Shown here piece after piece: positions 33,986 through 35,817 of a stretch of DNA of 64,000 bases. This DNA is from Anatilimnocola aggregata. Its GTDB lineage: Bacteria > Planctomycetota > Planctomycetia > Pirellulales > Pirellulaceae. Under the pieces are notes generated by a model, which saw only the letters and a list, made by a program, of their open reading frames with translations, was not told the DNA's origin and made no database searches. The DNA lies in assembly GCF_007747655.1 (NCBI RefSeq), contig NZ_CP036274.1, forward strand, positions 6,386,001 to 6,450,000, given 5' to 3'. The stretch's first letter is position 1. The number at the start of each line of letters is the position of its first letter. Made by a program: the position numbers and the translations under genes.

Positions 33986-34351
33986 CTAGGAACCATCGCG
34001 ATGGACCGTGCTCGGCGCAAATGCGGGGAGGCAGACCGCGATATATTCAGCCCCCTCGCTTCCCGGCGTGCTATAGCGAATCCACTCCCCCGCCTGACAG
34101 ATAATCGCCTGCCCCGCAGCGACCACAAACGTCTCGCTGGCGGTCTCCACCCGCAACTCCCCCCGCAGCACGACCGTGTATTCAGCGAACTCTGGCGTTT
34201 GCCCCGGCTCACTCCAACCGCTCGGGCTGGTCATCCGCGCAATGCTCAGCGCGTCGGTTTTTGAATTCACCCGGCCGATGAACTCTTCGATCTTCTTCGG
34301 CGGCGTCCCCGCTGCTTCAATGCGCGTAGGCTCGGTAATCAACTGCGGCAT
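33986..34351 (-). CDS. Cupin-domain protein
   Basis: The 121-residue protein is one cupin barrel: EFAEYTVVLRGELRVET with FVVAAGQAIICQAGEWIRYS. The usual first motif G(X)5HXH is not clear here, and the Glu and Tyr of EYTV take its place, so metal binding may differ. The partner enzyme is unknown. MPQLITEP at 34351 is taken as start; the frame extends to 34459. Confidence 0.75.
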   Translation of the reverse strand: MPQLITEPTRIEAAGTPPKKIEEFIGRVNSKTDALSIARMTSPSGWSEPGQTPEFAEYTVVLRGELRVETASETFVVAAGQAIICQAGEWIRYSTPGSEGAEYIAVCLPAFAPSTVHRDGS

Positions 34352-34642
34352 GGCCCTTCTCCGGAAGTTAGCGTGTGGAAGTATCGACTCAGTTTTATCA
34401 GTTGTCGTTCGCTGGATTGCACGTAAGTCAGCCGTTGCTTCCGACGATGGCCGCAGCACCTCTAGCTGGAAGACTCGGTTAATTTTCCGCGCGGTTGCGA
34501 AAATGTCCTGTCCCGTTCAGCCTCGTGAATGGCATGCGGCGAGTAAGATTATTTCGCCTGTCGCGGCATTTTCCCTGGCCTTGGCACACGATTTCTCGCT
34601 GAACTGCCCCTGATTGAAGTGAACCGACATGGTAAAATGTTC

Positions 34643-34648
34643 GATAAT
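34643..34648 (+). promoter_or_regulatory. Possible -10 element of the candidate ncRNA
   Basis: GATAAT lies about 6-12 bases before the first hairpin. TAAAAT at 34633-34638 is an alternative. No strong -35 accompanies either, so this is weak. Confidence 0.3.
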
Positions 34649-34653
34649 GACAG

Positions 34654-34895
34654 TGCGAGTGGAGCAGCGAAGGTCAGTCGCCGCTCAGCCACACTTCGCA
34701 ACGTACAATTGGTAAACAGCCTTTGGTGTGCATTCTGACCGAGGGACCTATTAATACGGGATGGCTCGAGTCACCAAGGTGCAAGTGCAGTAGCACGCCC
34801 GACTCCGCCAATCTCCCAGCGACTCCATCGCTGTCGAAATCCTCCAAAGGTTTGTTCTAAACACTGAGCCCCGCGCAACACGCGGGGCTCGGTCG
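34654..34895 (+). ncRNA. Candidate structured non-coding RNA (novel or unrecognised)
   Basis: Nested complementary segments indicate a folded RNA of about 240 nt. Domain 1 is a hairpin of 16 pairs: 34654-34658 with 34696-34700, 34659-34661 with 34690-34692, 34662-34665 with 34683-34686, and 34667-34670 with 34678-34681. Domain 2 is closed by CCTTTGG (34720-34726) with CCAAAGG (34844-34850) and encloses TGGC/GCCA (34762-34765, 34807-34810), GAGTC/GACTC (34768-34772, 34801-34805), GTGC/GCAC (34779-34782, 34793-34796) and CAGCGA/TCGCTG (34817-34822, 34828-34833). A strong terminator follows. I did not match it to tmRNA, RNase P, SRP or 6S RNA. Strand is inferred from the terminator position. Confidence 0.6.
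34866..34890 (+). terminator. Terminator hairpin of the candidate ncRNA
   Basis: Perfect 10-base arms GAGCCCCGCG (34866-34875) and CGCGGGGCTC (34881-34890) enclose CAACA; three more pairs, one a G-T wobble, can extend the stem. It is followed by GGTCGTTTCTT, a short T-rich run. Confidence 0.7.
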
Positions 34896-35063
34896 TTTCT
34901 TGGGTGAACCCTCCGGCCTCTCCCCCTCCCGACTCCCGACTTCTGCATTTCGTCCCGTAGGGACGCTGTCTGTCGCCACGGGTGCAACCCGTGGTAAAAA
35001 CCAAAAAAATGCACTCGTCCCCAAGGGACGACGGAGTTCCTGCTTCTCGTTTGTGTGCGATAC

Positions 35064-35699
35064 CTACTTCGTCACCGGAATCAACCTCGGCCGCGAGACT
35101 CGTTGGCCGGTGACGCGGCCCCAGCGGGCGTGCAGTTGGTTGAAGTCGAGCTTGAGAAAGCTCCAGAGGGCTTCGGGGGGGCGTTGTGCGAGCCACTCGT
35201 CGACGAGAACTCCCATGTGCTCGTCGTACTTAGCTTGCGAGCCCGTGTGGGCGAAGCAGCGACCTTCGTGACGGCGAATGTCGCCATCGAACTTTGGGCT
35301 GATGTGCCAGAGTTCGTGAAAGATGGTGATCAGCTTCTCGCGCAGGTCGAGATCCTGAAAGCGCGGCAGGTAGAACGTCAGGATGTAGAGCAATTCGTTC
35401 CCCGCCGAGTCGTGCAGCCGTTGCACGGTATACATACGGCCGCGGCGCTTGGTCGTCGTCGTGCCGTCTTTGAACCGCAGTGGGGTGAGGGAGGCGTAGA
35501 GCCCGTAGTTCACTCGCTTGCGCGCCTGCGCGAAGACCGTGGCGATCTTGGTGAAGTCGACATGCCCCAGCGAAGGTGTGCGGGCGACCATGTCCTGGCC
35601 GAGGAGTCGCATCGCCAAACAAAAATCAAAGGGAGGAAGGGGAGCTGCGTCTGGTAAGAGCCAGCGCGCTTGATTCGGCTGCTTGGAAAGAGGAGCCAT
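35064..35699 (-). CDS. SprT-like zinc metallopeptidase-like protein
   Basis: The 211-residue protein has the HExxH zinc motif in TIFHELWHISPKFDGD at about residue 127, with a further His in RRHEGRCFAHTG as likely third ligand. Upstream, YTVQRLHDSAGNELLYILTF could form the beta sheet. The arrangement resembles putative metallopeptidases such as the SprT and DUF45 groups, but I cannot assign it firmly. No signal peptide is present, so it is probably cytoplasmic. Confidence 0.7.
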   Translation of the reverse strand: MAPLSKQPNQARWLLPDAAPLPPFDFCLAMRLLGQDMVARTPSLGHVDFTKIATVFAQARKRVNYGLYASLTPLRFKDGTTTTKRRGRMYTVQRLHDSAGNELLYILTFYLPRFQDLDLREKLITIFHELWHISPKFDGDIRRHEGRCFAHTGSQAKYDEHMGVLVDEWLAQRPPEALWSFLKLDFNQLHARWGRVTGQRVSRPRLIPVTK

Positions 35700-35739
35700 C
35701 CTTGCTCTCCAGCTCGAGTCCCTTTTGCTTCCGCGTTGC

Positions 35740-35817
35740 GTGGGCTTTAGCCCACGTTTGAGGAAATCACCTGTGGGCTAAAGCCCACGTTACAAATTCA
35801 TGTGGACTGAAATCCAC
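35740..35817. repeat. Three GTGGGCTTTAGCCCAC palindromes
   Basis: Perfect or near-perfect 16-base palindromes at 35740-35755 and 35773-35788, and a diverged one, GTGGACTGAAATCCAC, at 35802-35817. They lie 10-90 bases beyond the rplQ stop and before the metalloprotease gene, and could act as terminators or be a dispersed repeat. Confidence 0.75.

Follow-up and report, generated by a model that had tools for sequence, protein, structure and literature searches.

The window analysed here is a stretch of 64,000 nucleotides from the genome of Anatilimnocola aggregata, and all positions without a prefix are counted from its first letter. A cupin-domain gene and a metallopeptidase-like gene, which are both encoded on the minus strand, are separated by a gap of up to about 710 bases, its size varying with the start that is picked for the cupin gene. 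An earlier note on this DNA had described the gap as free of genes, and the mechanical ORF list by which we judged it also gave no evident gene. The gap almost certainly harbors a standalone gene for a small structured RNA, made up of a conserved core and an intrinsic terminator and located on the plus strand, as had been deduced from the terminator. The parts of this gene are collected in Table 1.

Table 1. Features of the RNA gene in the window (positions in the window, plus strand; P, paired region; J1/2, junction strand).
Feature	Position	Strand	Basis and remarks
Promoter -10-like hexamer TACAAT	34704..34709	+	Top-scoring hexamer in the 65-base stretch before the core
Conserved RNA core (P1, junction strand, P2, P3)	34714..34854	+	Match to model R1 at G000:C1:6420714-6420854, E 8.1e-30 (this sequence is a member of the R1 training set)
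Whole transcript, about 180 nt (predicted)	34716..34899	+	Deduced from the positions of terminator and -10-like hexamer
P1 closing stem, 5' side	34718..34726	+	Pairs with 34844-34852; letters CCUUUGG/CCAAAGG in the stem
P1 closing stem, 3' side	34844..34852	+	Sequence and covariation of the P1 model pairs
J1/2 conserved junction strand	34735..34748	+	CUGACCGAGGGACC in the window; approximately CCGNCNGAGGNNCC in relatives
Putative pseudoknot strand CGAGGGA in J1/2	34740..34746	+	6 of 7 Watson-Crick pairs with the P3 loop
P2 long hairpin with internal loops, cap GUGC-AGUA-GCAC	34758..34817	+	Covariation, 98 sequences
P3 small hairpin	34818..34837	+	Covariation, 98 sequences
P3 loop UCCAUCG, putative pseudoknot partner	34824..34830	+	Cross-sequence permutation; column covariation
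Intrinsic terminator, 13 pairs (10 G-C), 5-base loop	34863..34893	+	Followed by CGTTTCTTGG; T-rich tail to about 34903

The transcript of 200-240 nt that the earlier note expected is replaced by one of about 180 nt that would start near 34716. Hexamers resembling a -10 box and scoring at least 7 bits were found upstream of 18 of 98 loci, where block shuffles gave an expectation of 4.1. As their distance from the core varies, and as a consensus scan of 34300-35100 returned no full promoter of the sigma-70 type in the gap, we infer the start of the window RNA (about 34715-34718). In some relatives (L033, L017, and L006) P1 seemed, on inspection by eye, to be preceded by an extra hairpin, such as GTGCGAGT...ACTCGCAC in L033; the start of the transcript may thus vary from genus to genus.

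The terminator hairpin that had been noticed in the sequence was found again, with a stem of 13 pairs, as was the closing stem around further helices (P1). A near copy of the hairpin and its tail, without the core, occurs elsewhere in the same genome (G000:C1:8922546-8922584, L021:1501-1539). Directly past the terminator, at 34950-35031, two TCGTCCC..GGGACGA palindromes surround a CCACGGGT/ACCCGTGG hairpin, which is possibly a REP-type intergenic repeat. A second group of palindromes, CGTGGGCTTTAGCCCACG and TGTGGGCTAAAGCCCACG, is located at 35739-35789, shortly upstream of the metallopeptidase-like gene, and has four matches in the window with both strands counted, against 0.09 expected.

Two structured domains had been claimed upstream of the terminator, and only the second, which corresponds to the core in Table 1, stood. 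The first (34643 to about 34704) is upstream sequence with a fold at chance level: for 34643-34712 the folding energy z-score was -1.03 and 34 of 200 shuffled sequences folded equally well. The match in the congener begins only at query base 102, position 34701 of the window; the first domain is therefore not conserved there, as judged on this one congener, the sole other genome of the genus sampled. The -10-like hexamer TACAAT sits between this domain and the conserved RNA. The whole segment 34643-34895 had a z-score of -3.72, while without the terminator the value was -1.42, with 16 of 200 shuffles equally good, and for the window core alone it was -1.76 (7 of 200). The score of the segment thus owes much to the terminator, and the fold of this single sequence is no proof of an RNA. 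In 11 relatives the core had z-scores of -2.08 to -5.68. The argument that so much pairing is unlikely by chance is therefore weak from folding alone, and the actual proof comes from conservation and covariation among relatives.

When 34600-34910 was used as a plain DNA query, without any model, 20 of 60 genomes, including the own one, gave matches at E<=0.01, mostly within 34725-34827. Eight of these 20 loci were on the minus strand, and after orientation all 20 could be aligned across the core of about 140 nt. In the resulting MAFFT alignment (A1), which is not fitted to the structure, 38 helix pairs and 6 trial pseudoknot pairs were named, with the structure taken from one member, L005, and changes on both sides that keep the pair were present at 24 of these 44. 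The shuffle and slide controls remove the relatedness of the sequences only partly; with this in mind, not one of the five measures was equalled in 500 shuffles of A1, and when the partners were displaced by 1-3 columns, the pairing fell from 87.8% to 35.3-43.7%. In an alignment of 98 sequences made with the model (A3), which leans towards the structure, both-side changes were found at all 38 helix pairs, namely at 12 of 12 model pairs in P1, 21 of 21 in P2, and 5 of 5 in P3. The cells of A3 were paired in 89.9% of cases compared to 72.7% in the shuffles, both figures including five pseudoknot pairs, and within P2 the value ranged from 86.1 to 99.7% per helix. In an all-against-all test of the columns of A3, 25 pairs of the structure headed the list ahead of any other pair. 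The earlier note had proposed a new structured RNA equipped with a terminator of its own and had named covariation in relatives as the check. This covariation is present, and together with the conservation and the terminators of the relatives it strongly supports the proposal.

These data also bear on the reading of the locus as a mobile repeat or as a fold arisen by chance. The palindromic repeats nearby (34950-35031 and 35739-35789) and the unremarkable fold energy of the window sequence would agree with it, but the RNA has a single match in its own genome as well as in 319 of the 321 matched genomes of the order, and all helices covary over the 98 sequences. This reading is refuted by the covariation, and we regard its probability as practically negligible.

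Beyond the nested helices, the P3 loop likely pairs back with the J1/2 junction strand to form a pseudoknot, although the support, which comes from sequence comparison, is mixed. Among the pairs of A3 that do not belong to the nested structure, the top one connects columns 27 and 117 (z 9.0), which are G-C in 51 of the 98 sequences and A-U in 20. For 48 distinct combinations of strand and loop, after three rows without a usable loop were left out, the mean best helix scored 10.96, compared to 9.98 (SD 0.20) when the loops were re-dealt among the sequences (0 of 5000 as high) and to 10.19 (SD 0.25) when the letters of the loops were shuffled (0 of 1000). Agreeing cases, with registers set by eye, are GGGUGGA-ACCACC, GGAAGCA-UUUCCA, and GGGAGGA-UCCUCC, together with CGAGGGA-UCCAUCG in the window, while AGAGAGA with UCCGUUU is a poor one (score 5). 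The covariation score of the pseudoknot columns (0.222 vs. 0.156) exceeded that of all 500 shuffles and of every slide. On the other hand, the number of covarying pseudoknot pairs was no better than in the shuffles, 490 of 500 being as high, one of the five pairs was unpaired in 79 of 96 cells, and two of six slid registers paired more cells (81.4% and 76.5%) than the true one (73.6%). In the window species, a shifted P3 of five base pairs (AGCGA/UCGCU) is predicted as an alternative, and it would consume three bases of the loop UCCAUCG.

The columns of J1/2 rank among the most conserved unpaired columns in the aligned relatives. A second possible partner of the junction is the 3' side of P3, where GUCG could pair with CGNC of the junction; three of these positions are conserved and the remaining one is unpaired in 48 of 97 sequences. 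In the family group f8, P3 appeared by eye to be degenerate or lost in six of nine aligned loci (L139, L140, L142, L143, L144, and L147), and these six keep the junction strand CCGUCGGAGGUGCCAA, L142 with one base changed. The retention of the strand without P3 is a hint that the junction has a role beyond the pseudoknot.

A terminator-like hairpin with a run of T residues followed the core in 73 of 98 loci but in only 6 of 184 control places (custom scan), and its stem begins at a median of 8 nt past the core. No neighboring protein family was common to more than 7 of the 98 loci, 20 of which spanned less than 1,500 bases in all. By rough gene calling, the main downstream ORF was antiparallel to the RNA in 47 of 77 loci, while the other 30 had it in the same direction. 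The unconserved neighbors and the mixed orientation of the ORFs fit an independent trans-acting gene. A cis-acting riboswitch or attenuator, whose terminator would control the downstream gene, could be recognized in the aptamer-like conserved junction, in the intrinsic terminator at a nearly fixed distance, and in the 30 loci with the main ORF on the same strand. Yet the downstream genes are not conserved, the main ORF is opposite in the 47 other loci, and both flanking genes in the window (cupin and metallopeptidase-like) are on the minus strand; because of this gene orientation the explanation is largely refuted and we consider it highly improbable. A protein-coding core was rejected as well: the three frames are open in 32, 40, and 29 of the 98 sequences and the core lengths modulo 3 fall into classes of 37, 30, and 31, so no frame is conserved.

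To describe the distribution of the RNA we used model R1, trained on 20 sequences out of the 60 relatives. At E<=0.01, with the 8 best first-look candidates scored per genome, R1 matched 321 of 396 genomes of the order Pirellulales, 319 of them once and two (G079 and G110) twice; among genomes of good quality the count was 224 of 253. No match was obtained in 75 of the 396 genomes, including 29 of the 253 good-quality ones, and as the RNA is absent or undetected there, it is not strictly universal. With 54 candidates scored per genome, 55 of the 60 relatives had one match each. The large searches use strict filters, so their misses are no proof of absence.

In a sample of the phylum, R1 matched 37 of 392 genomes: 12 of 12 in the order, 24 of 27 in f21 (a family group in another order of the class, with no genome in the R1 training), 0 of 1 in f22, and one outside the class (G501). 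The broader model R3, whose training set included 14 of the f21 matches, found 43 of 392, that is 16 of 16 in the order, 26 of 32 in f21, 0 of 4 in f22 and f118 together, and G501 among 340 genomes outside the class; the class denominators assume that all misses beyond those listed in order of kinship lie outside the class. Our guess is that f21 represents Planctomycetaceae/Planctomycetales. The match in G501 is doubtful: its E value with R1 was 6.6e-5, several conserved bases are missing, and G408, the other listed genome of the same genus, gave no match. Its E value with R3 is circular because the sequence is in the training set of that model. An exact pattern of the P3 region retrieved 38 stretches from 84,980 named species genomes, 35 of which are titled as planctomycete taxa, while the other three are from Blastopirellula, Pirellula, and Candidatus Anammoximicrobium, all Pirellulaceae.

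Identity with 6S RNA, which was initially favored on the usually single copy, the topology, and the lack of an RF00013 match at cut-off in the own genome, was dropped. The closing stem, the asymmetric central loop, whose 3' strand bears a small hairpin, and the long terminal hairpin form a topology that resembles 6S. RF00013 gave no match over this RNA in the window (at the gathering score and at E<=5), in the 19 relatives (at the gathering score), or in the 20 loci (at E<=1), and its match in the own genome lies elsewhere, at 18 bits and below the cut-off. Full-length RF00013 matches were located at other places in 10 of the 60 relatives, three of them over the cut-off, and from these ten a lineage 6S model (R2) was built. 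R2 detected 6S in 25 of the 60 relatives (e.g., L169, L171, and L179), compared to 55 for the present RNA, but neither in the own genome nor in the congener. Both RNAs were found in 23 genomes, always at different places, this RNA alone in 32, 6S alone in two (G010 and G041), and neither in three (G018, G047, and G053). As the two coexist at separate places, this RNA is neither 6S nor simply its replacement, and membership in the 6S family, to which the earlier note had likened it, is unsupported.

As a side result, the 6S RNA of this lineage is divergent and lineage-specific, being recognizable in 25 of the 60 sampled genomes of the order with only three over the cut-off of Rfam, despite a reported absence: the Thermogutta paper mentions RNase P, SRP, and tmRNA identified by Infernal but no 6S, and 6S was reported absent in the two Pirellulales species named there (PMC5673643).

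A function close to that of 6S could still be imagined, in which a 6S-like or Ms1-like regulator binds RNA polymerase. P1 and P2 would then mimic the two arms of an open promoter, and its bubble would be mimicked by the junction. The topology, which resembles 6S, would suit this, as would the lack of a 6S in the own genome by either the RF00013 cut-off or the lineage model and the patchy occurrence of 6S (25 of 60) relative to this RNA (55 of 60). Nevertheless, 23 of the 25 relatives with 6S carry both RNAs at different places, P1 has merely about 9-12 pairs, no 6S family matches this RNA, and the junction is conserved in sequence and probably pseudoknotted rather than an open bubble. We therefore hold polymerase binding to be improbable.

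Bacteria have few RNAs that are both single-copy and deeply conserved, and the majority of the known ones run core machinery. In our opinion, the present RNA is best explained as a new standalone class acting in trans, the RNA part of an RNA-protein particle of the housekeeping type, to which we give a probability of about 0.45. The presence of usually one copy over two orders, the conservation of the whole fold and of the junction, and the loop folded back onto it suggest such a particle rather than an antisense RNA that follows its targets. According to this model, the gene would use its own predicted promoter and the intrinsic terminator to produce an RNA of about 180 nt, in which the closing stem P1, the long hairpin P2, and the small hairpin P3 meet at the junction, with the P3 loop probably paired back onto the junction strand. 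The RNA would act in trans, and a conserved protein or machine would presumably recognize the junction core. Since the P3 loop and, in part, a strand of the P3 stem are potential pairing partners of the junction strand, a switch between pairings is conceivable, and the J1/2-P3 pairing, as it opens and closes, could be the moving part. A slightly more tentative version states that Pirellulales and a family of another order possess an additional, nearly universal particle beside RNase P, SRP, tmRNA, and 6S, whose pseudoknotted junction would switch its pairings upon binding of the partner.

UCC is present in the exposed P3 loop of 86 of 98 sequences, which would be in keeping with a base-pairing regulator, too. 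The riboregulator suggested in the earlier note is a possible role, in the form of a trans-acting small RNA whose freed UCC loop would pair with GGA ribosome-binding sites of mRNAs and block translation. The standalone gene with its terminator and the unconserved neighbors also agree with such a function. However, the loop varies (UCCACC, UCCACUC, GCAUCCG, UUUCCA, and ACCACC) in step with its internal partner, so the variation is better explained by the internal pseudoknot than by an unchanging target outside the RNA, and the entire fold is conserved, beyond a seed. We thus consider a base-pairing regulator unlikely, though less so than a polymerase-binding RNA, and prefer the RNA-protein particle. 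Two other candidates were rejected. A sponge for CsrA would have only two GGA motifs in the core, at 34744 and 34759, the second within P2, and for ribosome binding via GGAGGUG, which is complementary to the 16S tail, the motif is not conserved in the clade of the window (GAGGGA there). Taken together, most sampled members of a large and cell-biologically unusual order, and relatives in another, have kept an RNA that matches nothing in Rfam 15, and the alignments and coordinates make it directly testable in cultured species.

Regarding known RNAs, neither the window nor the 19 relatives gave a match to any family of Rfam 15 at the gathering score where this RNA lies. The earlier note had not been able to match it to tmRNA, RNase P, SRP, or 6S; these RNAs are elsewhere or distinct. 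The genome has its tmRNA (RF00023) over the cut-off at G000:C1:7415930-7416290 (E 6.3e-60; seven weaker matches, none here) and its RNase P RNA (RF00010) at G000:C1:6381318-6381795 (E 4.7e-97). The bacterial small SRP RNA (RF00169) resembles this RNA in being small and folded and has one match over the cut-off in the genome, at G000:C1:8369005-8369099. At E<=5, two sub-threshold matches of isrJ fell on the terminator hairpin in the window, one of them extending back to 34834. At E<=1, just two matches fell on or next to the RNA in the 20 loci, namely BSnc120, which overlaps the final 8 bases of the core in L119, and STnc420 just beyond the L074 core, both on the other strand and far below the cut-off.

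Acido-Lenti-1 RNA (RF01687) has a sub-threshold match at 34951-34994 on the minus strand (15.5 bits, gathering score 37), which does not overlap this RNA and lies in the palindromic repeat-like sequence just downstream. Over the cut-off it was found only in the flanks of one of the 19 relatives, L014, where two matches in opposed orientation (L014:1764-1809, minus strand, and L014:1915-1960, plus strand) are near the RNA. This opposed pair suggests that RF01687 may be a repeat.

No description of this RNA was found in the titles and the first parts of the abstracts of the open-licence PMC literature, and an earlier description elsewhere is possible. Judged from sequence comparison, the class is new relative to Rfam 15, with no family match, and Rhodopirellula-1 was considered by its description only. 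A table row in the paper on 104 motifs lists Rhodopirellula-1 for Proteobacteria and Planctomycetes as a doubtful RNA, with a cis-regulatory assignment (PMC2864571). It shares with the present RNA the status of a planctomycete candidate motif, and as far as this row alone allows a comparison, the two may be identical (PMC2864571). The Rfam scans are no test of Rhodopirellula-1, because the row shows no Rfam accession. The Ms1 RNA of Actinobacteria, which binds the core RNA polymerase, is described in two papers as a lineage-specific RNA beside or instead of 6S (PMC9130861, PMC11077062). By this description our RNA is similar to Ms1 as a lineage-specific RNA beside 6S, with polymerase binding being hypothetical here, but it is without any Rfam match. 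With 6S RNA itself (RF00013) it has in common that it is usually single-copy, standalone, and of comparable size, and it differs from 6S in its sequence-conserved junction and in the probable pseudoknot between loop and junction.
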